Made by a program: the position numbers and the translations under genes. Shown here one piece after another: positions 4,192 through 22,372 of a stretch of 24,552 bases of DNA. Position 1 is the stretch's first letter, and the number at the start of each line of letters is the position of its first letter. The notes under the pieces were generated by a model that worked only from the letters and a program-made list of their open reading frames with translations, was not told the origin of the DNA and did no database searches. The stretch is from a virus, in the IMG/VR virus record IMGVR_UViG_3300030390_001235, positions 1 through 24,552 of that record, one strand, 5' to 3'.

Positions 4192-4707
4192 ATGAAACTA
4201 GAAGTAATAAGGTTCAACAAAGGTAAAGACGCCACTAACGGACTGCTATTCGATATAACAAATGATAAAAGAAAATTTTTATGCTATACTCTCGAAGATG
4301 AGAGCCGCACCGAAAAAGTTTGGGGAGAAACTTGTATACCTGAAGGAGAGTATTGCCTCGGTCTTAGGACTGTGGGCGGCCACCATTCCAAGTACTCCAA
4401 GAGGTTTGCTGATATACATAGTGGGATGCTTCAAGTCCTTGATGTTCCTAATTTTACGCATATTCTTATTCACTGCGGTAACACTGACGAGGATACTGCT
4501 GGGTGTTTACTACTTGGTGACACGCAAGAAAACAACAACATAAAAGAAAACGGATTTATAGGTAGATCAACATTAGCATATATGAGGGTGTACCCTAGTA
4601 TAGCTAAAGCTTTGGAAGACGGGGAAGATGTAACTATAACATATAGAGATTTTGAAACTTCACTTCTCTTATCTAAAGCAGAAGTAACAAATTTTTTTGA
4701 CAAATGA
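4192..4707 (+). CDS. DUF5675-like protein, possible cell-wall function
   Basis: A 171-residue protein matching the DUF5675 pattern as I recall it: an N-terminal strand region with YTLEDESRTEKVWGET (32-47), then IPEGEY, and the hallmark IHCGNTDEDTAGCLLLG, with H94 and C105. The H-x-G-N-T and later G-C arrangement recalls the catalytic H and SxxGC of L,D-transpeptidases, so a peptidoglycan-acting fold is a fair inference, though activity is not established for the family. In phages such proteins often lie near lysis genes; here a small signal-peptide gene lies upstream on the other strand. No signal peptide is present. The gene is preceded by an A-rich leader and overlaps the next gene by ATGA (4704-4707). 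Confidence 0.75.
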   Translation: MKLEVIRFNKGKDATNGLLFDITNDKRKFLCYTLEDESRTEKVWGETCIPEGEYCLGLRTVGGHHSKYSKRFADIHSGMLQVLDVPNFTHILIHCGNTDEDTAGCLLLGDTQENNNIKENGFIGRSTLAYMRVYPSIAKALEDGEDVTITYRDFETSLLLSKAEVTNFFDK

Positions 4708-6233: not shown

Positions 6234-6821
6234 ATGAAGTCTATGAAAGGGTTTGTTGTTGAGATCCCTAAAAAAACTAAAGAGTCTGTTACTTTATCAG
6301 GAGGTGTAGAAATTTTTATGGACACTAAATATGATGAGTTTAGACATAGGGTTATGGACGGTAAAGTAGTGGCTCTACCCGCAAGGCACAAAACTGAAGT
6401 TAAGATAGGTGATACAATATACTTTCACCACCATGTGGTGGTTCAAGGTGGTTCTCCTTTGCCTGGACATGAGCACCACTATACAGTTAGATATCATCCT
6501 GATATCGCTATGGACTCACAAGCCTTTGCTCATAAGTGTGCGAAAACAGGAAAGGTAAGTAGTTTATCCTCTTGGTGCTTGCTTGAATTTGTAGAAGAAA
6601 AACATAAAGATGACCTAGAGTCTGAAACTATAGAAATAATAAGCTCTAAAAAACCCCCAACAAAAGCAAGGGTAGCGTTTGCTTCAAAAGATTGCGAGTA
6701 CCTAAACGTTAAGCCTGGAGATATTGTTGGCATTGACAGGAACCGAGATTATGGGGTAGTGGTAGATGGAAAAAATTATTATAGAACCCGCGCAGAAGAC
6801 CTTATGTATGTCGAAAACTAA
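6234..6821 (+). CDS. Divergent GroES-like co-chaperonin, apparently two barrels in tandem
   Basis: A 195-residue protein. Residues about 20-95 follow the GroES/Cpn10 layout: GGVEIFMDTKYDEFRHRV where the mobile loop would be, DGKVVALP, VKIGDTIYFHHHVV (GroES: VKVGDxVxF), then HYTVRYHPDIAM, matching the final GroES strand pair. Residues about 130-195 repeat much of the plan: ARVAFASKDCEYLNVKPGD, VVDGKNYYRTRAEDLMYVEN. Phages often carry a co-chaperonin so that host GroEL can fold the capsid protein (T4 gp31 is the known case); that is the likely role. Typical Cpn10 is about 95 residues, so the double length is unusual and recalls plant Cpn20. The inserted part is histidine-rich. The hydrophobic GroEL-binding tripeptide of the mobile loop is not obvious, so binding is uncertain. 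Confidence 0.5.
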   Translation: MKSMKGFVVEIPKKTKESVTLSGGVEIFMDTKYDEFRHRVMDGKVVALPARHKTEVKIGDTIYFHHHVVVQGGSPLPGHEHHYTVRYHPDIAMDSQAFAHKCAKTGKVSSLSSWCLLEFVEEKHKDDLESETIEIISSKKPPTKARVAFASKDCEYLNVKPGDIVGIDRNRDYGVVVDGKNYYRTRAEDLMYVEN

Positions 6822-7098
6822 ATTTACAACAATAGGGGCTTCTCGAAGTCTTATGTCTAGTATGGAGGCTGCAATTAATAATATGATCCAGGAAATAAAA
6901 AAACCTGTTGATCCTGAGATTAACGGCAGCGCTAGAAAAGCGGAGTTGCAGTCAATAAAGCAAACGGCGACAGATTGTAAGGAGCTTATTATAGAAAGGC
7001 AAAGATTAGGACAGATGGTTAAAGATCTTGAAAGTAGCGGTGAAATCAGTGAATCGAAAGATTACTCTGGAGGGTTTGCGGAAAGGTTTTCAAAGTGA
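6808..7098 (+). CDS. Small coiled-coil hypothetical protein
   Basis: I place the start at 6808 (MSKTKFTTIGASRSLMSSME), giving 96 residues and a 14-base overlap with the previous gene. A longer start at 6766 would overlap it by 56 bases and add an unlikely N-terminus. The protein is mainly helical with heptad-like stretches (about 15-32 and 45-75: NGSARKAELQSIKQTATDCK, LIIERQRLGQMVKDLESSG). No family recognised. Its TGA overlaps the GTG start of the HNH gene, so the two are probably coupled. Confidence 0.6.
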   Translation: MSKTKFTTIGASRSLMSSMEAAINNMIQEIKKPVDPEINGSARKAELQSIKQTATDCKELIIERQRLGQMVKDLESSGEISESKDYSGGFAERFSK

Positions 7099-7565
7099 AA
7101 CGTTGTAAAACTTGCCAAAGAGTTTTACCCTTAGATAGGTTTTATCACAGATCTGGTAGCGATGATTATTTTAACTCTTGTATACCTTGCCGCGCAAAAA
7201 ATATTGCCCAAAGAAAAAGTAAGATATATAGTTGGGTAGATGAATATAAGTCTACAGTTGGGTGCGCTGCATGTGGGGAAAAAGACTATAGGTGCCTACA
7301 GCTGCACCATCAAGATCCCTCTAACAAAAAAAAAAGCGTTGCCACCCTTATAGGTAAGGGTTATATATTTAAAACGGTAAAGGCTGAGGTAGAAAAATGT
7401 GAAGTTTTATGTGCTAACTGCCATTCAAAACATCACTACAAAGAAAGAAGGTCTAAACGCTGGGGTGCTGGCAAAAATACTAGCGATATAATAAGCGAAG
7501 AGTGTATTCCTGTTCTGGAGCAATTAGAGTTGTTTTTAAACTACACTGACAATGCTAAAATATAG
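7095..7565 (+). CDS. HNH endonuclease
   Basis: A 156-residue zinc-containing nuclease. It starts with GTG at 7095, overlapping the preceding stop. Two CxxC pairs at the N-terminus (C4/C7 and C29/C32) form a zinc knuckle. The HNH core follows: C57-AA-C60, then LQLHHQDP with H71/H72 as the catalytic pair region, and C106-AN-C109-H110 with HH at 113-114, giving the CxxC...HH...CxxCH layout of HNH domains. Such genes in phages are free-standing homing-type nucleases or help DNA packaging. As it lies about 2.2 kb from the terminase with two secreted-protein genes between, a homing or accessory nuclease is more likely than the packaging HNH. Confidence 0.85.
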   Translation: MKRCKTCQRVLPLDRFYHRSGSDDYFNSCIPCRAKNIAQRKSKIYSWVDEYKSTVGCAACGEKDYRCLQLHHQDPSNKKKSVATLIGKGYIFKTVKAEVEKCEVLCANCHSKHHYKERRSKRWGAGKNTSDIISEECIPVLEQLELFLNYTDNAKI

Positions 7566-7579: not shown

Positions 7580-7948
7580 ATGAAACAACTTGTCGCATTA
7601 CTATTATTGATTTTTGTATCTTACTCTGCTTCGTCTCAGTGTAACCAACACGTCTTCACTTCTGTAGGAGCTGAAAAATGGACAAATTTTCAATACCAAG
7701 ATTGTGATGGGGGATCCCATTACTTTGGGTTGCCTGCAGGAGGATACACTGTAATATTCTGTGCGGACATAGGTACTGCTTTTATTCTAAACGGGGATGG
7801 GTTTGTATACCCGCTTCTTACGGAGCATCCTAATTATGCTTCATGTATACAGGTAGAGTCGTGCCCTGGAGACTTAGATGATAACGGGGCGGTAGATGTT
7901 CAGGATTTATTGTTATTTTTAGAAAACTACGGGCTTTCATGCGAATAA
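7580..7948 (+). CDS. Secreted protein with C-terminal EF-hand/dockerin-like motif
   Basis: A 122-residue exported protein. A signal peptide covers about residues 1-19 (MKQLVALLLLIFVSYSASS), with Q20 as the likely mature end, as is common in Bacteroidota. A cysteine-containing middle (C21, C42, C61, C89) is followed by one clear calcium loop, GDLDDNGAVDVQD (D98, D100, N102, V105, D109), then LLLFLENYG. This is the half-dockerin pattern common at the ends of secreted Bacteroidota proteins. Only one calcium loop is present, whereas true type I dockerins have two. No T9SS sorting domain. It shares a promoter with the next gene, whose ATG lies inside its 3' end (10-base overlap), so the two exported proteins are made together and may act together. 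Confidence 0.7.
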   Translation: MKQLVALLLLIFVSYSASSQCNQHVFTSVGAEKWTNFQYQDCDGGSHYFGLPAGGYTVIFCADIGTAFILNGDGFVYPLLTEHPNYASCIQVESCPGDLDDNGAVDVQDLLLFLENYGLSCE

Positions 7949-9147
7949 ACTTATTTCATATAATATGGCTTCTGTATAGCGTTTTTGTATTTAACAATTC
8001 CGCATACGGGCAGTGTGATGTAGCTATAAGTAGCTGGGATGCCGCGTCAGGCGATATTGTTATTGAAGCTGTCAATAGCGAAAATTGTGGATGCAATGAG
8101 TTCACGTCTGAAGGTACTACTTGTGAAAGTAGTGCTAGTTCTCATGTAACTAACAATGCAACTGTTAGTCATCTTGTTTTAGGCTTACATGTAGAAGGAT
8201 TAGATTATAATTGGTTGGATTGTTTGACTGGGGTCAATCACCCAGGTTGGACATTTAAAGTGTTTACTCTTTACGGGAATCAAATATTAGAAAGCGGTGA
8301 TACTTGGAGCGCTAATGTTTATGATACAGGGGCAAGTACAAACGATTGTTGGACAGAGATACTCGCTAACGACAGCCTATGCACTGAATTAGTAATATGG
8401 CAAATAAACTTATCTCGAACAGCCTCAACAGAGGAAGGCGGATGGGCGCTAAATCAAGGGTTTAACCAAACTCAAAATTATCCTGATATAGATCTTACTA
8501 ACAACTTTGCAATAAACTGTGCACCACCTGCGTGTGACACCGTGTATGTAGATGTTATTGAATACGTAGATGTTATTGAATACGTAGATGTTATTGAATA
8601 CGTAGATGTTATTGAATACCTTACGGATACTATAATAGAGTATGTAGATGTTGAATGGGTAACGACAGACACCTTATACATATCAGACACTATAGTAGAG
8701 TACATAGACGTTGAATGGATAACAACCGACACACTGTATGTTACAGATACTATAGAAACTGTAGTATATGATTATATATACATTTATGAAACAGATACTA
8801 TAACCGAGTATTTAGTAGAGTCTGTATACATTGACTGTAATACGGGTTTAATATGCGGAGAAGAATTTCCGTGTGATGAAACCTCTATATATGCACCTAA
8901 CGTAGTAACTCCTAACGGAGACGGCTGGAACGACACATGGAAGGCTGTTGCAGATGGCGCATGCTGGGCTCAATGGGAGGTGCGTATATACAATAGATGG
9001 GGAGGACTGGTTTGGATCAGCGCTTCCTCAACGGATGAATGGGATGCTAATGTTGCAACAGGAACCTATGTGTATACTATTACGGCACACAGCTCAGTCA
9101 ACACTAGTGTTTTTGAGTTTAACGGGACTTTAACTGTGTTATATTAG
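7939..9147 (+). CDS. T9SS cargo with CHU_C (type B sorting) domain and tandem repeats
   Basis: A 402-residue secreted protein. The signal peptide covers about residues 1-25 (ends SAYG, then QC). Residues 26-195 are a cysteine- and tryptophan-containing beta-rich domain of unknown fold. Residues 203-226 are four exact YVDVIE repeats, followed by two 20-residue repeats (230-269, DTIxEYxDVEW type) and related threonine/tyrosine/aspartate-rich sequence, probably an extended stalk. Residues about 318-402 are the gliding-motility-associated C-terminal domain: NVVTPNGDGWND from residue 321, VRIYNRWGGLVW, GTYVYTI and a final FNGTLTVLY. In Bacteroidota this domain sends proteins through the type IX system to the cell surface or medium. 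A phage gene carrying it implies use of the host T9SS. Role unknown; surface masking, adhesion and superinfection exclusion are options. Confidence 0.85.
   Translation: MRINLFHIIWLLYSVFVFNNSAYGQCDVAISSWDAASGDIVIEAVNSENCGCNEFTSEGTTCESSASSHVTNNATVSHLVLGLHVEGLDYNWLDCLTGVNHPGWTFKVFTLYGNQILESGDTWSANVYDTGASTNDCWTEILANDSLCTELVIWQINLSRTASTEEGGWALNQGFNQTQNYPDIDLTNNFAINCAPPACDTVYVDVIEYVDVIEYVDVIEYVDVIEYLTDTIIEYVDVEWVTTDTLYISDTIVEYIDVEWITTDTLYVTDTIETVVYDYIYIYETDTITEYLVESVYIDCNTGLICGEEFPCDETSIYAPNVVTPNGDGWNDTWKAVADGACWAQWEVRIYNRWGGLVWISASSTDEWDANVATGTYVYTITAHSSVNTSVFEFNGTLTVLY
8545..8616 (+). repeat. Four in-frame 18-base tandem repeats
   Basis: Four copies of TAyGTAGATGTTATTGAA (8545-8562, 8563-8580, 8581-8598, 8599-8616). 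Copies 2-4 are identical, and copy 1 differs by one synonymous base. They encode YVDVIE four times. The near identity points to recent gain of copies by slippage, and each change of copy number keeps the reading frame. Confidence 0.9.
8626..8745 (+). repeat. Two diverged 60-base tandem repeats
   Basis: Units 8626-8685 and 8686-8745 encode two 20-residue repeats of the form DTIxEYxDVEWxTTDTLYxx. They have many synonymous differences, so they are older than the adjacent 18-base repeats but share the YxDV core with them. Confidence 0.8.
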
Positions 9148-9151
9148 GGGT

Positions 9152-9409
9152 ATGGCAAGAGACTATAAAGATGAATACAAAAAGTTTCAAGGCACTGAAA
9201 AGCAAAAAAAACTAAGGGTTATAAGAAACCGCAATAGAAGAAAACTAGAGAAAGCGTGTAGAGTGAAAAAAGGTGACGGAAAAGATATACACCATGAGGG
9301 GGATGTGTTAATAGTAATGGACGCATCTAAGAACCGAGGGCTTCCAGAAAAATCTAGGCTAAAAAAATCTAAAAGAAAAAAACACAGAATTAAAAAAAAC
9401 GATGGATAA
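9152..9409 (+). CDS. Small basic HNH-like protein near terminase
   Basis: An 85-residue, very basic protein. Its first half is a charged helix (MARDYKDEYKKFQGTEKQKK, then RNRNRRKLEKACRVKKG). It continues GDGKDIHHEGDVLIVMDASKNRG. The GKD-[IV]-H/D-H motif followed by L-x-V-x-x-x-S-x-N-R is a layout I associate with small HNH-like proteins near phage terminase genes. The expected second-histidine segment is shortened, so nuclease activity is doubtful. A packaging helper or DNA-binding role is an inference from context. Its end overlaps the next start by 8 bases. Confidence 0.55.
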   Translation: MARDYKDEYKKFQGTEKQKKLRVIRNRNRRKLEKACRVKKGDGKDIHHEGDVLIVMDASKNRGLPEKSRLKKSKRKKHRIKKNDG

Positions 9410-9604: not shown

Positions 9605-9805
9605 ATGGCAGAATATAAATGCGATTGCAACGATGACGTTGTAGAAAAAACAAACGTTACTATTAGATTTATTGACGGAGAGGCTCTTCATGATGTTAAG
9701 TGTTCGTGCGGCAAGTATCTTAATCTAATTGAAAAAGAAAGAAATTACACAAAAGATGGGATTGCTTCTCTTGGAAGAATGAATAAAAATGGTAGTAGTT
9801 ACTAA
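9605..9805 (+). CDS. Small zinc-ribbon-like protein before terminase
   Basis: A 66-residue protein with cysteine pairs C6/C8 and C33/C35 (KCDCNDD and VKCSCGKYL), fitting one zinc site between two beta hairpins. It ends SLGRMNKNGSSY. Its TAA overlaps the terminase ATG (TAATG at 9803-9807), so it is almost certainly translated together with the terminase and may assist packaging. No small terminase subunit was recognised in this window; this protein looks too short and lacks a helix-turn-helix, so I do not assign it that role. Confidence 0.6.
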   Translation: MAEYKCDCNDDVVEKTNVTIRFIDGEALHDVKCSCGKYLNLIEKERNYTKDGIASLGRMNKNGSSY

Positions 9806-11928
9806 TGTCTACATTGTTAGATCTAGACGAATATGATGAGCCTGCTATTAAAATTTGCCCCAACGGTACAGAGGGTGAAATTATTAAACTCGGTGGGTTA
9901 CTCATTTGCCTTCCAAAAAGGCCGCCGAAAAAAGAAATTTTCGGATATAAAAAATCAAACTCTATGCAAATGTGGGAAAGGCTACCTATGCCGAAGGAGC
10001 TGTCTCGTATTCGTTCTATGGATGAGTGGGCGGAAACTCCAAGGGAGTTTAGAGAGAGGTTTCGTCCATATATCGAGGAAGAGTTTAGGCGTAGGCGTGA
10101 GGGCTTTTGGTTTTATAACAACGGTGCAGCTACATATATTACGGGGAGGCACTACATGATGGTCCAATGGACTAAGCTAGATATAGGATATCCGTATTTT
10201 TTAAACTTTCAAAGAGATATATTTTTACACATGGCTGCCTGCGAGTCCGATTCTCGTTGTATTGGTCAGCTTTATACTAAGTGCCGCCGTAGCGGTTACA
10301 CTAATATATGCTCATCCGTACTTGTAGATGAGGCCACGCAAGTAAAAGACAAGCTTATAGGTATACAATCAAAGACGGGTAAAGACGCTCAAGAAAACAT
10401 CTTTATGAAAAAGGTTGTTTACATGTTTAGAAATTATCCATTCTTTTTTAAGCCAATTCAAGATGGTACTACTAACCCTCGTATGGAGCTAGCTTTTAGG
10501 GAACCTTCTAAAAGAATAACAAAGAAAAACAAAACCTCACAAACAGGAGAGGCTCTTAATACTGTTATAAACTGGAAGAACACAACAAACAATGCTTATG
10601 ACGGTGAAAAGCTACACCTGTTGTATTTAGATGAGGCTGGCAAATGGGAGCGTCCTACCGACATAAAAGATGCGTGGCGCATTCAAAGAACGTGCCTTAT
10701 AGTAGGTAAAAGAATAGTAGGGAAGGCGATGGTTGGAAGTACTGTAAACCCTATGGACAAAGGTGGCAAACAATACAAAGCCCTATGGACAGATTCTAAC
10801 CCCGATGAAAGAAACGCTAACGGAAGAACCAGAACGGGCCTATACAGGTTGTTTATACCTGCTTATGAGTCTTTAGAAGGTTTTTTTGATGTGTATGGAC
10901 TTCCTGTAGTAGAAACTCCTAACGATCCAGTATCGGGAATAGACGGTGATTCTATTATTTCAGGAGCTAAAACTTATTTAAAAAACGAACGTAACAGTTT
11001 AAAGCATGATGCATCTGAGTTAAATGAGGTGGTAAGGCAATTTCCTTTTACTACCGACGAGGCATTTAGGGATAGCATTGAAGGGAGTCTTTTTAATATA
11101 GGAAAAATATACGAGCAAATTCAACATAATGATGATTTGTTTCCTAACCCTGTTGTATCTGGGAACTTTCAATGGAAAGGAGGCGAAAAAGATACGGAGG
11201 TGGTATTTTCTCCAGATCCTAATGGAAGATTTCGTGTGGCCTGGTTGCCGCCAAGCGAGTTGAGCAATCAAAAACTATTAAGCAAAGGTCAAAAAATTGC
11301 TCCGAACTCAAATATAGGTTGCGGAGGAGTAGACTCCTACGATTTAGATTCCACTGTTGACGGTAGAGGATCTAAAGGGTCTCTTCATTTATACAATAAA
11401 TTTAACATGGAGTATCCTTCTGATACTTTTGTTTTAGAATACGCTTCGCGCCCACCTTTAGCTAAGATTTTTTATGAAGATGTTTTAATGGCAGCTGTGT
11501 TTTATGGGTACCCTATATTAATAGAGAATAATAAATATGGTATTGCAAGGCATTTTGAATCTAGGGGGTATGACGGGTACTTAATGGATAGACCTAAGCA
11601 TTTGCTGGCTGCTAATAGCTCTGTAGTAAAATCAAAAACAAAGGGGATTCCTTCAAACTCACAAGACGTTATACAAGCTCACGCTCACGCTATAGAATCT
11701 TATATTCATAATCACGTAGGTATAAATTACGATACGGGTTATATGGGAGATATGAGTTTTAATCGTACCTTAGAGGATTGGATCGGATACCAAATAGACA
11801 ACAGAACTAAGTTTGACCTTACTATTAGCTCGGGGCTAGCTCTTTTGGCATCTCAAAAAGCTAAACTAAAGAAAAAGTCAGTTAATTTTTCTGATAGTAT
11901 ATTTCTAAGGAGGTTTAAGGTTAATTAA
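9805..11928 (+). CDS. Large terminase subunit (DNA-packaging ATPase and nuclease)
   Basis: A 707-residue protein that drives viral DNA into the prohead and cuts it. The ATPase half has a Walker A of the deviant kind, TKCRRSGYTN at 158-167: the lysine stands early (K159) and Y165 replaces the usual GKT lysine, as in the lambda large terminase motif KSARVGYSK. The Walker B is LHLLYLDEA, with D276 and E277. SKTGKDAQENIF (190-201) is typical of the region after Walker A in this class. The nuclease half shows GCGGVDSYD (D510) and YPILIENN (E574), and a third acidic residue probably lies in SQDVIQAHAHAIESYI near residue 626. The length fits large terminases of Bacteroidota phages. The portal gene follows. 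Confidence 0.92.
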   Translation: MSTLLDLDEYDEPAIKICPNGTEGEIIKLGGLLICLPKRPPKKEIFGYKKSNSMQMWERLPMPKELSRIRSMDEWAETPREFRERFRPYIEEEFRRRREGFWFYNNGAATYITGRHYMMVQWTKLDIGYPYFLNFQRDIFLHMAACESDSRCIGQLYTKCRRSGYTNICSSVLVDEATQVKDKLIGIQSKTGKDAQENIFMKKVVYMFRNYPFFFKPIQDGTTNPRMELAFREPSKRITKKNKTSQTGEALNTVINWKNTTNNAYDGEKLHLLYLDEAGKWERPTDIKDAWRIQRTCLIVGKRIVGKAMVGSTVNPMDKGGKQYKALWTDSNPDERNANGRTRTGLYRLFIPAYESLEGFFDVYGLPVVETPNDPVSGIDGDSIISGAKTYLKNERNSLKHDASELNEVVRQFPFTTDEAFRDSIEGSLFNIGKIYEQIQHNDDLFPNPVVSGNFQWKGGEKDTEVVFSPDPNGRFRVAWLPPSELSNQKLLSKGQKIAPNSNIGCGGVDSYDLDSTVDGRGSKGSLHLYNKFNMEYPSDTFVLEYASRPPLAKIFYEDVLMAAVFYGYPILIENNKYGIARHFESRGYDGYLMDRPKHLLAANSSVVKSKTKGIPSNSQDVIQAHAHAIESYIHNHVGINYDTGYMGDMSFNRTLEDWIGYQIDNRTKFDLTISSGLALLASQKAKLKKKSVNFSDSIFLRRFKVN

Positions 11929-11959: not shown

Positions 11960-11980
11960 ATGCGCTTATTAAGAAAATAA
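11960..11980 (+). CDS. Leader mini-ORF MRLLRK before portal
   Basis: ATG at 11960, six codons, and TAA at 11978-11980 that overlaps the portal ATG as TAATG. The ATG stands where a leaderless mRNA from the TATATTTG box would start. A ribosome that ends here could restart on the portal gene. It may also be chance; the arrangement, not the peptide, is the evidence. Confidence 0.35.
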   Translation: MRLLRK

Positions 11981-14436
11981 TGTATAGCAATAAGAAAAAA
12001 GGTGGCAAAACAAAAGGATTTCCAGATCCGCTAGCCAAATCAGAGGAAAAAGCTATGCATGAATATGGGCTAAACTATGCCCAGGCCATTGAGTCTCAAT
12101 GGGGTAGCGACGGAGATATATCTTCTTTATATAAAACAAAAGAACAAACTTTTAGTAAAAGTAGAAGATACGCTAACGGAACTCAAGATACAACTCCGTA
12201 CAAAAAGATGTTAACGTCTTTAGATCCTAACGGAAGTAGCGGAACTTTATTAAACTTAGATTACACTCCAGTTCCTATATTACCTAAGTTTGTTAAGATT
12301 GTAGTTAACAATATTTTATCTAGAAACCCTCAGCCTAACGTAGAGGCGATTGACCCCCTTTCTTCTTCCGAAAAGGATTTAGAAAAAAAGAAAGTTGAGT
12401 CTTCTGTGCTAGCTAAAAAGCAGTTAATGGAGCTTAAGGATTCCACGGGTATGGAAATAAATGGTGATCCAAGTCAGATACCAGACACCCTAGAGGAGGC
12501 TGAGATATTTATGGGGACAAGCATAAAAACCGATGCGGAAATTGCAGCTCAGATAGGCACTATGATGACCTTAGAGTGGAATGATTTTAACGACAGTATT
12601 CTGCGAAGATGTGTCGGGGACTTAGTAACCTGTGGTATGGCCGTGGTTAAAAGAGATAATGACCCTAATTACGGGATTACTACTCATTACGTAGACCCTA
12701 GTAGGTTTGTGCATAGCCGCACTGAGGATGCTGGAATGAATGATCTCCTATACGCTGGTCACACAAAAAGAATAAGTATCCAGGAATTAAAAAGACTAGC
12801 AGGTGATCAGCTGACAGAAAAACAATACGAAACTATAGCGCAAAAAGTATCAGATAAATTTGGTAACAACTCCTCTCTTTTAAACTACAGGGAAACAAAC
12901 AGCTCATCTAGCTCTTCGTCTTATGGTTATGACGAGTACATGGTGGACGTATTAGACTTTGAGTTTTTAGCTGTAGACTGCATTAATTTTGAGGAAAAAG
13001 AAAACAGACACGGGAATACTGGGTTTTACCCAAAGCCGTCTGATTACAAGCCTAAACATGGATCTATATACGATAGGACAGCTCACTCTATGGAGGTGGA
13101 AACTGTGTATGGTGGTAGTTACGTTTTAGGGTGTGAATACCTATTTAATTATGGCTTGAAGAAGAACGTTCCAAAAAACGTTCACGATATATCTAAAGCA
13201 AAAATGTCGTATTCTCCTATTGCGGTGAATATGAGTGATATGTGCCCTAAGTCTCTCGTTGATAGTTGCGTAGGCTTTGCGGATATGCTACAGCTTACGC
13301 ACCTTAAGATCCAACAATCAATAGCCAAAGCAAAACCAGATGGTTTAATTATAGATATTGAAGGCTTAGAAAATGTACAACTAGGTAAAGGCGGTGATTT
13401 ACAACCTCTTGAGCTTCACGATATATACGAGCAAACAGGTGTATTTTACTACAGAAGTAAAAATCCTGAGGGAGGTTTCCAAAACCCTCCAGTAAGGGAA
13501 ATAGGGAATAGTATTAGAAATATTAACGAATTAATAGGCATATATAACCATTACCTAAAATTAATTCGAGATGCAACAGGCATAAATGAAGTTATGGACG
13601 CAAGCTCTCCTAAAGCAGACTCGTTAGTAGGAGTAAGAGAGCAAGCTATGCAAGCAAGTAATAACGCTATATATAACATTACTAACGCTTCTATGGTGTT
13701 ATATAAAAAGGTTTGTCAAGATGTCGTTAAATGTTTACAAATATTACCTGAAGAGTCTGTAGTTTTTAAAACTTATTCAAATGCTATAGGTGAAAACAAC
13801 ATGAAGGTTCTTTCTTCTTTTCAGGATTTATCCATGTATAACTTTGGAGTAAAGGTTGTAAAAGAGATGGAAACTCAAGATAAAGCCGCTTTAGAGCAAA
13901 TGATACAAGTTTCTTTGGGTCAGAAAGAAATAGACCTAGAAGATGTTTTAGCTATAAAGGATCTTAAAGATATTAATCAAGCCCAACGTCTTCTTATGGT
14001 AAGAAGAAAGAAAAGGATGGCCTCTATGCAGCAGCAACAACAAGCTATGCAACAACAGCAGCAGCAAGCCGCTATGCAAGCTGAACAAATGAAACAACAA
14101 TCAACTGCTCAAATTGCTCAAGCGGAAGCTCAATTAGAAATGCAAAAAATTCAAGCTAAGGCTGCTGCGGAAATTGAAGTAGCAAAAGCTTTGCATGAGT
14201 TCCGAAAAGAAATAGAGATAATAAAAGCTCAAGCTACACTAGGCTTTAAAACTGACGACAAAGAGTTTAAGGAAAAGATAGAGGTTTTAAAAGAAGATAG
14301 AAAGGACGACAGGGTTGAGAAGCAAGCTGTTCAGCAGTCCAAGCTAATGTCCCAAAGACAAGAAAAGAGAGGAGAGCTTCAAGACTCCCCTCCAGATGAA
14401 TCTAATCAATCTGTTTCTCAAATATTAAACCAGTAA
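11980..14436 (+). CDS. Portal protein
   Basis: An 818-residue protein forming the DNA entry ring at one vertex of the capsid. Support is its place right after the large terminase, its length, and portal-like features: an early YAQAIESQW segment, a mixed alpha/beta core (VVKRDNDPNYGITTHYVDPSRF), then a helical stem and crown region with IYNHYLKLIRDATGINEVMD, and DSLVGVREQAMQASNNAIYN, the pattern seen in portals of podovirus-like phages. The last 150 residues are a glutamine-rich coiled coil (QQQQQ runs at about 684-700, then alternating A, Q, E, K to about 800), probably the C-terminal barrel or a tunnel inside the capsid. A few serines in a row (about 307-314) form a flexible loop. The promoter at 11947 and the mini-ORF precede it. 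Confidence 0.82.
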   Translation: MYSNKKKGGKTKGFPDPLAKSEEKAMHEYGLNYAQAIESQWGSDGDISSLYKTKEQTFSKSRRYANGTQDTTPYKKMLTSLDPNGSSGTLLNLDYTPVPILPKFVKIVVNNILSRNPQPNVEAIDPLSSSEKDLEKKKVESSVLAKKQLMELKDSTGMEINGDPSQIPDTLEEAEIFMGTSIKTDAEIAAQIGTMMTLEWNDFNDSILRRCVGDLVTCGMAVVKRDNDPNYGITTHYVDPSRFVHSRTEDAGMNDLLYAGHTKRISIQELKRLAGDQLTEKQYETIAQKVSDKFGNNSSLLNYRETNSSSSSSSYGYDEYMVDVLDFEFLAVDCINFEEKENRHGNTGFYPKPSDYKPKHGSIYDRTAHSMEVETVYGGSYVLGCEYLFNYGLKKNVPKNVHDISKAKMSYSPIAVNMSDMCPKSLVDSCVGFADMLQLTHLKIQQSIAKAKPDGLIIDIEGLENVQLGKGGDLQPLELHDIYEQTGVFYYRSKNPEGGFQNPPVREIGNSIRNINELIGIYNHYLKLIRDATGINEVMDASSPKADSLVGVREQAMQASNNAIYNITNASMVLYKKVCQDVVKCLQILPEESVVFKTYSNAIGENNMKVLSSFQDLSMYNFGVKVVKEMETQDKAALEQMIQVSLGQKEIDLEDVLAIKDLKDINQAQRLLMVRRKKRMASMQQQQQAMQQQQQQAAMQAEQMKQQSTAQIAQAEAQLEMQKIQAKAAAEIEVAKALHEFRKEIEIIKAQATLGFKTDDKEFKEKIEVLKEDRKDDRVEKQAVQQSKLMSQRQEKRGELQDSPPDESNQSVSQILNQ

Positions 14437-15223: not shown

Positions 15224-16318
15224 ATGCGTAAAGCCTTACTAACCATACTATTAGTTTCTGTTACCTTAACCCATGGTTTAAGCCAGGGGGTAATTAAGAA
15301 CTTTTTTAAGTATAGTACTTTTTATACTTCCTTCAGTCAATCCAACCCTATGGTCCAGGAAGACACATATGCCGTAATAGATGGGTTGCTTACTGTGGTA
15401 CCTATGGCATACGAACCTAATTATACTTTTTCCTTGGGTTTAAGAAAGTTAGCGCGATTTAAGTACGAAATTAAGGCGACTAATTTTTATAATGGTTCGG
15501 AGGTATCCATGTCGGAAGAGGCTAACGTAGGTAATGTAAGTGGTTTTGAGTATGTGTTCGAGCATTCGGAAGTAAGGCTTACAGGTCAAGAGTCAAAAGA
15601 TCAGCGTTACTTTCTTAGGCATCTATCTAAGTGGATGGTTGCGGAATTAGATTTTCTAGAAAACGGGCGAGCGGACATAAAATATTTAGAGACTGCTCTT
15701 AAGCTGCGTGTTCAAGTAGGTAATAAATTTAACTTTACTGCGGGTGTAGCAGCGCGTAGACACCCTGCTTACACTGTAGCGCCTATTGAGGATTGGATAG
15801 AAGAGAATGAGGGAGCGTGGTGGCAGCTAGCTTATGACTACGATTATGTAGACAACTGGGTATACGTAGATTCTAACAATGACGGTGATTATACAGTAGG
15901 CGAGTGGAGTGACTGGGAGTGGTACGGACCAGAGGGTAACCTAGTTGCAGAAACTGACTCAGAATTTAGACGATATCAATATGGAGCTATAGTAAACACT
16001 TACAACAGGGATATACGTAGACAGCTTCCTAATCAATATCAGCTTTCTGCAGCAATAGGTGCAGACTTTTACCACTACTCAGAAGATTTCTGGTTACACT
16101 CGTGGGTGAATGTAATGCCTTATCACAAAGAGCTAGGGGATGAAGAATACTCTTACTCAAGAGTAGTAGGGGATACATGGGTAGACTATAACGCAGGAAT
16201 TGTTTTCGGGGCTAACATAGGAAAGCACTTAGGTTTGTTTGCGGAAGGAAATTTTAGTGAGTACTGGGGAAGACCCCTAGGAAGTTTAACAATGGGGGTA
16301 AATTATGTAATCAAGTAA
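15224..16318 (+). CDS. Exported outer-membrane-like protein with EF-hand loop
   Basis: A 364-residue protein with a signal peptide (MRKALLTILLVSVTLTHGLS, cleavage near SQ-GV). The mature part is rich in tyrosine, tryptophan and alternating strand patterns (VIDGLLTVVPMAYEPNYTFS, KYEIKATNFYNG, LKLRVQVGNKFNFTAGVAAR, AGIVFGANIGKHLGLFAEGN), and ends GSLTMGVNYVIK, as expected for an outer-membrane beta-barrel of Bacteroidota. An acidic aromatic insertion contains a calcium loop, DSNNDGDYTVGEW (D216, N218, D220, D222, E227). I do not know a function. It is encoded within the virion gene array, so it could be made late to change the host surface, for example to block further adsorption or aid release; packaging into the virion is less likely given the signal peptide. 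Confidence 0.7.
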   Translation: MRKALLTILLVSVTLTHGLSQGVIKNFFKYSTFYTSFSQSNPMVQEDTYAVIDGLLTVVPMAYEPNYTFSLGLRKLARFKYEIKATNFYNGSEVSMSEEANVGNVSGFEYVFEHSEVRLTGQESKDQRYFLRHLSKWMVAELDFLENGRADIKYLETALKLRVQVGNKFNFTAGVAARRHPAYTVAPIEDWIEENEGAWWQLAYDYDYVDNWVYVDSNNDGDYTVGEWSDWEWYGPEGNLVAETDSEFRRYQYGAIVNTYNRDIRRQLPNQYQLSAAIGADFYHYSEDFWLHSWVNVMPYHKELGDEEYSYSRVVGDTWVDYNAGIVFGANIGKHLGLFAEGNFSEYWGRPLGSLTMGVNYVIK

Positions 16319-16611: not shown

Positions 16612-16980
16612 ATGAAAACAATTCTTGCGGCTTTTGCGTCGCTCACCTTATTTTCGGCAGCTGTGTATGTAAATGCTGTTCCTGCCCCCGTTAGTATTCC
16701 TAATTCTGGAGTATGTGTTGTAGAGTTTAACGCTAGCTTTAATACTGCTAATAGTGTTGAGTGGTTAGACAATCTTAGCGACTGTAAAGGCAGGCGTGTA
16801 GATATAGCCGCGAACCCTGACATGCAGAAAAAACATAAAATTGTTGTTGTGCCTACAGTTATTGTATTTGATGATGGAAAAGAAGTCAAACGGTTCCAAG
16901 CTAATATTATGATGCAATTAGAGGCTAATGAAGATGATGTTCAAGAGGTTATTGATGAAATTATAATGAGCGCATTCTAA
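16612..16980 (+). CDS. Exported thioredoxin-fold protein lacking the CxxC site
   Basis: A 122-residue protein with a signal peptide (MKTILAAFASLTLFSAAVYV, end near VNA-VP). The mature part reads as a thioredoxin fold: CVVEFNASFNTANSVEWLDN (strand, then the place where WCGPC would be), CKGRRVDIAANPDMQKKHKI (second strand and helix), VVVPTVIVFDDGKEVKRF with the conserved cis-proline P81, and a last helix EDDVQEVIDEII. The catalytic cysteine pair is missing; only C35, before the first strand, and C58 remain. Reductase activity is therefore unlikely. It may bind an envelope protein or act as a chaperone. It lies between the TM coiled-coil gene and a small basic gene, with the TAATG overlap at its end. 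Confidence 0.65.
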   Translation: MKTILAAFASLTLFSAAVYVNAVPAPVSIPNSGVCVVEFNASFNTANSVEWLDNLSDCKGRRVDIAANPDMQKKHKIVVVPTVIVFDDGKEVKRFQANIMMQLEANEDDVQEVIDEIIMSAF

Positions 16981-20854: not shown

Positions 20855-22372
20855 ATGGCAATAGATGTCGCAAGCGGTAACGTCGCCGATCAGACGCCAG
20901 TATCAGGTGGTATAACTAACTCGCCAGAGAAGTATACTACTGTTGAACAACTACTAGCGTATAATGCACCAGACGTAAAAGATGAGCTTATTAAAGCTTA
21001 CGGTGACCAGGGTATTACTGGTTTCCTTAAAATGACAGGGGCTGTCCGTTCAGGCGGAACAGCTGATTTTGTAACATGGTTCGAGGAGGGCCGTCGTCAC
21101 ACAACATTTGAGTTTGGCGCAACAACCGAAACTACCGCAGATGAAGATGGCGCTGGATTTGACGGTGTTGAGATGATCGAAATGGTCCTAACCAAGGTAA
21201 ATGGAACGGCGCTCGCATCAATCGGAGCTGGACTAGGCGGTGTTGTAACCAAAGCTGCGCAGGTACTAAACGTAGGTGATGTACTTCTTTCTCAGGGCAC
21301 AGGACATACTTACATCGTAAGAAGCGTAGACCTTTCAGCAGATCTTGCTACTGGAGCTGATCTAGATGTTATTGTAGCGCGTATGGATGGTACCGATGGC
21401 ACGAGCACAATGGAGGCTACTAATGAGACTTTTTCTCTTATCGGTAGTGCACACCCAGAGGGTCAAGCTGCTGGAGCACGTAGCGCTTACCAAAGAGCTA
21501 ACTTAACTAAGCTAAACAACTCATACAATATTATTAAAGATATGTACCAGGTATCTGGTTCTGCTGCTACTAATATTGGATATGTAAACATCGGGAACGG
21601 TGATTACCGCTGGTACATTAAAGGAGAGCAAGAAACTCGTGCTCGCTTTATGGATAAGCGTGAGATGATGATGCTTTTTTCTGCTAAGCAGAATCAAAAT
21701 CAGCAAGTGGGATCTGGAGCAGTTATTTCAGATCTTCCTGGTGATGTTGCTGGATCTGAAGGATACTTTGCAGCTGTTTCTGGTCGCGGTATTACCGCTA
21801 CAGGCGATGCTACAAGCAGAATCTTTGACGAGATGGCTACATTAGATAATATCCTTATTGAGCTAGACAAAGAGGGAGCGCCAGCTGAGTACGCTATGTA
21901 CTTAGACCGTCGTACTTCTTTAGATATTGACGATATGTTAGCTAACGGAGTTGCTACTCAAAGCACTGCTGGTTTACCAGGACAGTTTGGAGCATTCAAC
22001 AACGATTCTGACATGGCTGTTAAGCTTGGATTTAAATCTTTCTCTCGTGGAGGATACACTTTCCATAAGCATGACTGGAAGCTAATGAATGACCCTCAGC
22101 TTGCTGGAGGAATGACAGCAGCTGAATACAGAGGAGCGATGATTCCTATGGCTACTTACACTGATCCTAAGTCTGGGCTTTCTGCTCCAGCCCTAGAGAT
22201 GGTTTATAAGGAGGCTAACGGGTATTCTCGTGAACTAGAGCACTGGGTAACTGGTGGAGCAGTAATTGGCAATAAGACAGATGATTCTGACATTGCTAAG
22301 TTCCACTATCGTTCTGAGTGTCAGCTAGTGACTCGTGCAGCTAACCAACACGTAGTTCTTCGCGGAGCTTGA
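20855..22372 (+). CDS. Major capsid protein (probable)
   Basis: A 505-residue protein, the likely shell subunit. Evidence is position after the scaffold gene, length, and composition: polar N-terminal arm (MAIDVASGNVADQTPVSGGI), then NAPDVKDELIKAYGDQGITG, TWFEEGRRHTTFEF, and a long helix-like stretch KGEQETRARFMDKREMMMLF. Later segments TLDNILIELDKEGAPAEYAM, YLDRRTSLDIDDMLANG and FKSFSRGGYTFHKHDWKLMN are like capsid proteins of Bacteroidota phages. Codon choice is visibly more biased (many GCT, GGA, CGT, AAG) than in the neighbouring small genes, as expected for a very abundant product. A strong hairpin at 22388-22413 follows the stop. An HK97-type fold is assumed from the phage context, not seen. 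Confidence 0.75.
   Translation: MAIDVASGNVADQTPVSGGITNSPEKYTTVEQLLAYNAPDVKDELIKAYGDQGITGFLKMTGAVRSGGTADFVTWFEEGRRHTTFEFGATTETTADEDGAGFDGVEMIEMVLTKVNGTALASIGAGLGGVVTKAAQVLNVGDVLLSQGTGHTYIVRSVDLSADLATGADLDVIVARMDGTDGTSTMEATNETFSLIGSAHPEGQAAGARSAYQRANLTKLNNSYNIIKDMYQVSGSAATNIGYVNIGNGDYRWYIKGEQETRARFMDKREMMMLFSAKQNQNQQVGSGAVISDLPGDVAGSEGYFAAVSGRGITATGDATSRIFDEMATLDNILIELDKEGAPAEYAMYLDRRTSLDIDDMLANGVATQSTAGLPGQFGAFNNDSDMAVKLGFKSFSRGGYTFHKHDWKLMNDPQLAGGMTAAEYRGAMIPMATYTDPKSGLSAPALEMVYKEANGYSRELEHWVTGGAVIGNKTDDSDIAKFHYRSECQLVTRAANQHVVLRGA

Follow-up and report, generated by a model that had tools for sequence, protein, structure and literature searches.

Two overlapping genes upstream of a phage terminase gene appear to form an accessory cassette that remodels the cell surface of the Bacteroidota host during infection, a reading to which we assign a probability of roughly 0.55. 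The genes lie in a 24,552-nucleotide stretch of viral DNA (IMG/VR record IMGVR_UViG_3300030390_001235, hereafter the window), and the second of them, an intact open reading frame at 7939-9147 on the plus strand, encodes a 402-aa cargo protein with a type B sorting domain that, judging from its sequence and a structural model, is probably exported by the type IX secretion system (T9SS) of the host. Phage-encoded T9SS cargo is already known (PMC7468147, PMC6949934); what is new here is the type B, phage-specific, two-gene and modular form. The initial annotation of this DNA had recognized a phage-encoded protein with such a sorting domain, and that part stands; it missed the companion gene and the cassette, as well as the fact that this cassette is spread over unrelated phages and swaps its head and C-terminal domain (CTD). 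The uses it put forward, such as blocking of receptors, altered adhesion or capture of substrates, are conjectural.

The 402-aa protein and its phage origin

The signal peptide of the 402-aa protein occupies residues 1-24 (7939-8010, plus strand), where a hydrophobic N-terminus is followed by AYG^QC, with cleavage predicted before Gln25. Residues 2-23 form a helix in the AlphaFold2 model, and the full-length relatives listed all have Gln at the predicted start of the mature protein. Judged by eye, this is the Sec signal peptide expected of a type B cargo. Exposure of Gln by signal peptidase I is known for Bacteroidota substrates as the Q-rule (PMC5837995), and Q-rule N-termini are common to both cassette proteins. 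The signal peptide is followed by a Cys-rich, beta-rich head of about 170 residues (residues 25-195, 8011-8523, plus strand) and a repeat stalk (residues 196-300, 8524-8838, plus strand), which contains a perfect 4 x 18-bp tandem repeat at 8548-8619 (plus strand) and a second array, 60 bp x 2.3, at 8620-8755, and which varies from 69 to 120 residues in relatives. Signal peptide and repeat stalk had both been proposed in the initial annotation, and both are evident.

The CTD, residues 312-402 (8872-9144, plus strand), is a CHU_C / type B T9SS sorting domain by both models that define it, with matches above the curated cut-offs to PF13585 (residues 319-388, E=7e-16, 58.6 bits, cut-off 27) and TIGR04131 (38.8 bits, cut-off 35); no type A T9SS domain was reported for the protein in the HMM search. 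These matches confirm the CHU_C/gliding-motility domain first read from the letters alone, as well as the placing of its motifs (TPNGDGWND from residue 324, YNRWGG at 351-356 and GTYVYTI at 375-381). In an AlphaFold2 model built with 27 relatives the CTD is confident (pLDDT about 80) and the stalk is not resolved. The modelled CTD best matches T9SS substrate CTDs, with the NucA CTD trapped in the SprA translocon (8glk_D) at the top (Z 9.2, rmsd 1.8 A, 72 of 75 residues); 8glj, 8gl6 and 8gl8 were matched too, and the CTDs of FspA, RemA and RemZ are in the same list, as are PorZ, PorU and RgpB. The model thus has the beta-sandwich fold of T9SS cargo CTDs, although the solved CTDs that it matches are not type B, a class that has no solved structure (PMC12618676), and since these matches barely exceed generic beta-sandwiches (Z about 8), the fold backs the HMM result and does not replace it. 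The residues PN..TPN.D..ND, NRWG, W and G.YVY are kept in all or nearly all members of the family, alongside the signal peptide. The best match in a viral structure library is a protein of Virus NIOZ-UU157 (37% identity, 416-column alignment).

Phage genes surround the cassette. Downstream, all on the plus strand, are the terminase large subunit (TerL; 9805-11928, phrog_6681, E 4e-203), the portal protein (11980-14436, phrog_6547, E 1e-183) and a major-capsid-like virion structural protein of the head-and-packaging category (20855-22372, phrog_13704, E 2e-107). Among the relatives of TerL, those whose hosts are named infect Flavobacterium and Cellulophaga, and the names of others refer to Tenacibaculum, Maribacter and Azobacteroides. 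Bacteroidota hosts commonly encode CHU_C domains, so that a host fragment or an assembly chimera at 7580-9147, which would have undone the initial annotation, had to be considered; but many independently assembled contigs have this gene next to the same phage genes, over 100 viral contigs encode the head domain, the family occurs in unrelated phage lineages, and 33 of its 34 virus records hold exactly one CHU_C domain. Together with the TerL, portal and virion structural genes of the record itself, this effectively excludes contamination or chimerism.

A pattern scan for the head, based on two short peptide patterns that distant cellular relatives could escape, found it in 105 viral stretches and gave one match among 84,980 cellular genomes, in a Pseudomonadales metagenome-assembled genome (MAG). 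The contig concerned has a terminase as well, with 50% identity to the one in the window, and its CHU_C domain is the only one in this 5.8-Mb MAG; the match is a misbinned phage contig. Since the single cellular match is itself phage, no head-bearing prophage was seen among the 84,980 genomes, and lysogenic conversion by the cassette is unlikely. Matches to Bacteroidota plasmid proteins, in Hymenobacter and Adhaeribacter, covered the CTD only, and named phages likewise gave CTD-level matches only, which came from very large metagenomic phages and a single short fragment. Two metagenomic phages of about 640 kb (LR756502 and LR745206) have more than one CHU_C-like stretch each.

The companion gene and the insertion site

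The gene at 7580-7948 (plus strand), whose end overlaps the start of the cargo gene by 10 nt, encodes a companion of 122 aa with a signal peptide, a mature start QC, a small Cys-containing domain and a C-terminal EF-hand/dockerin-like half-repeat, and without a sorting domain. The half-repeat is a single loop of the Ca-binding type plus a helix (CPGDLDDNGAVDVQDLLLFLENYG; 7862-7933, plus strand), recognized through dockerin chains and, weakly, EF-hand_6: the C-terminal end of the companion matches dockerin 2y3n_B (E 2.3e-4), and EF-hand_6 is found in 14 of 30 companion members, with a best E of 0.005 and all matches weak. A dockerin has two duplicated Ca-binding F-hand repeats and the companion has one; a cohesin-dockerin pair was rejected on account of this single repeat and of the head, which has no cohesin match. 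The model of the companion is weak (pLDDT 60) and gave no structural match, and no match was obtained among named phages.

The two genes recur together. A companion homolog is found near the CHU_C gene at 45 of 66 mapped loci, several of the remaining loci running off contig ends, and in nearly all 45 it is adjacent or one gene off (30 have it immediately upstream, 7 immediately downstream and 7 across one gene). The intervening gene, where there is one, is homologous to DUF5675, except in L161, which has a DUF285 gene there. The window has a DUF5675 gene of its own at 4192-4707, the homolog of which sits between the cassette genes in another phage lineage (L014, L022, L024, L025 and L065).

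The borders of the insertion, placed by homology of the flanks to empty sites, are an HNH endonuclease gene on the left (7095-7565, plus strand; phrog_2255, E 1e-27) and a small conserved phage gene on the right (9152-9409, plus strand). Relatives that lack the pair have the HNH gene followed directly by the small gene, with a gap of 39 nt in L117 against 1.63 kb in the window. The pair occupies an otherwise empty site upstream of the terminase in a minority of relatives; a CHU_C match is present in only 3 of 42 TerL relatives, which is a lower bound because the records are partial. Being present in some close relatives and absent from others at one and the same site is characteristic of an accessory gene, or moron, and the pair behaves in this way. 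The family also occurs in records as long as 199 kb with terminases of another type; in other lineages the pair lies in quite different neighbourhoods, and the association of the family with unrelated terminases indicates that the cassette has moved between phage lineages.

Other genes of the region were recorded as well. Short lipoprotein-like ORFs (LASCS-type) occur in four relatives (L087, L090, L092 and L113) close to this insertion site upstream of the terminase. A GroES-like phage co-chaperonin is encoded at 6234-6821 (phrog_13932, E 1.6e-33), and in Elemovirus a GroES gene likewise lies just upstream of TerL, with a GroEL gene nearby. A small exported protein encoded at 16612-16980 resembles thioredoxin (PF00085, E 4.8e-4, below the cut-off).

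Selection on the head and exchange of domains

The head has no Pfam or PDB relative by sequence and no database family covers it; sequence searches matched no known adhesin or carbohydrate-binding family. Foldseek and VIA returned weak generic beta-sandwich matches, in a list dominated by the CTD by which the head was barely tested. The head is under purifying selection, with a dN/dS of about 0.1: by a simple pairwise estimate the median dN/dS is 0.105 for the head and 0.365 for the CTD.

Head and CTD are exchanged independently between phages. Compared with the window, L027 shares 88% of the head and 39% of the CTD, while in L252, L265 and L271 it is the CTD that is alike (84-85%) and the head that differs (24-27%); exchange of the CTD occurs only between sorting domains. 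In F. johnsoniae, type B CTDs select specific PorP/SprF-like shuttles (PMC12618676), so exchange of the tag could fit the cassette to different hosts. Many viral contigs stop within the CHU_C gene (L025, L040, L042, L054, L065, L067, L070 and L076-L081), which suggests strong strain variation or repeats that break assembly.

Export and possible roles at the cell surface

We propose that both cassette proteins would cross the inner membrane by Sec and that signal peptidase I would then expose their N-terminal Gln. Recognition of the type B CTD would allow the 402-aa protein to pass through the host SprA translocon, after which a PorP/SprF-like shuttle of the host may take it over and hold the phage-specific head on its stalk at the outer surface. 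The companion, at the surface or within the envelope, probably acts with it. That the host T9SS exports the protein was already the claim of the initial annotation; the type B sorting domain (by HMM and fold) and the signal peptide support it well, and secretion itself is what we infer from them. A search for PF11751 found no PorP/SprF-like shuttle in 35 virus records, although it was run without a positive control, and orphan type B cargos served by a distant shuttle are known (PMC12618676). The ORF at 15224-16318, which encodes a 364-aa exported, possibly beta-barrel protein without a Pfam or PHROG match, was considered as a phage shuttle and set aside, as it occurs in relatives both with and without the cassette.

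The benefit to the phage would most likely be a surface changed toward other phages or cells. Gliding and T9SS surface proteins have been implicated in flavobacterial phage adsorption (PMC13288928), and type B CTDs depend on cognate shuttles, which are apparently used stoichiometrically (PMC12618676); together these make it our leading guess, held at well under even odds, that the head masks a receptor or that the CTD and the type B adhesins of the host compete for shuttles. The cassette may possibly serve superinfection exclusion, which would fit less well if the genes, lying among head-packaging genes, are expressed late with them. In its boldest form, which we consider rather unlikely, the proposal is of a widespread, phage-only secreted two-protein system with exchangeable tags matched to different host shuttles, which strips or covers host type B surface proteins through shuttle depletion or adhesin masking and so closes the cell to other phages.

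Other readings share some of this evidence. The protein may be exported in the same way and act as an adhesin, so that infected cells stick to host cells or particles and progeny are released near new hosts, with no block to other phages. The stalk-and-head build with its variable repeat number, the strong variation of the head and the putative adhesins, moved or anchored at the surface, among F. johnsoniae type B cargos (PMC12618676) all agree with this, but the head belongs to no known adhesin or carbohydrate-binding family, and we think an adhesin a minor prospect. Less probable again is that both proteins reside on or around the virion, or are decoys released at lysis that keep progeny off debris, the T9SS tag being a means of outward delivery. 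The genes do lie beside packaging and structural genes, and in L161 the pair adjoins a DUF285-repeat gene and beta-helix, tail-like genes; Virion proteins that assemble in the cytoplasm, however, would not be expected to have Sec signal peptides, and in other lineages the neighbourhoods differ. It is also improbable that T9SS does not export the protein, its CTD being either a relic or a beta-sandwich that serves another purpose. Secretion is deduced here from the parts of the protein, and for some type B CTDs the minimal signal reaches beyond the domain (PMC12618676), but the sorting residues are conserved together with the signal peptide, and CTDs are exchanged solely between sorting domains.

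The cassette proposed here resembles several known systems. Cryophage (PMC7468147) also encodes proteins with T9SS domains that vary between related phages and are thought to be secreted by the host, but its domains are type A and sit on two glycoside hydrolases and a PA14 protein, whereas the window has a type B domain, a phage-specific head that matches no enzyme, a stalk of repeats and a companion gene that recurs with it. The crAss-like BACON/T9SS-domain ORFs likewise belong to Bacteroidota phages and, as genes with a T9SS sorting domain, lie upstream of the head module, but they have BACON repeat domains, and the passages on them in PMC6949934 describe no companion of the cassette type. 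The type B T9SS adhesins SprB and Fjoh_3952 share the type B CTD (TIGR04131) and, by analogy, the hold at the surface by a PorP/SprF-like shuttle; they differ in being chromosomal host genes, often followed by a shuttle gene of their own, and none was found beside the phage gene. The gliding motility-associated C-terminal domain protein of Virus NIOZ-UU157 apparently belongs to the same family as the 402-aa protein but is known by database annotation, and we found no paper on it; nor did the open-access literature yield papers on a phage-encoded type B, phage-specific, two-gene, modular cargo.

If the proposed remodelling is correct, lytic Bacteroidota phages put proteins of their own on the infected cell by way of the host T9SS, and the address tag evolves separately from the payload. 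The heads and tags of these phages would then form a natural set in which to ask how type B signals choose their shuttles and whether T9SS display drives competition between phages.
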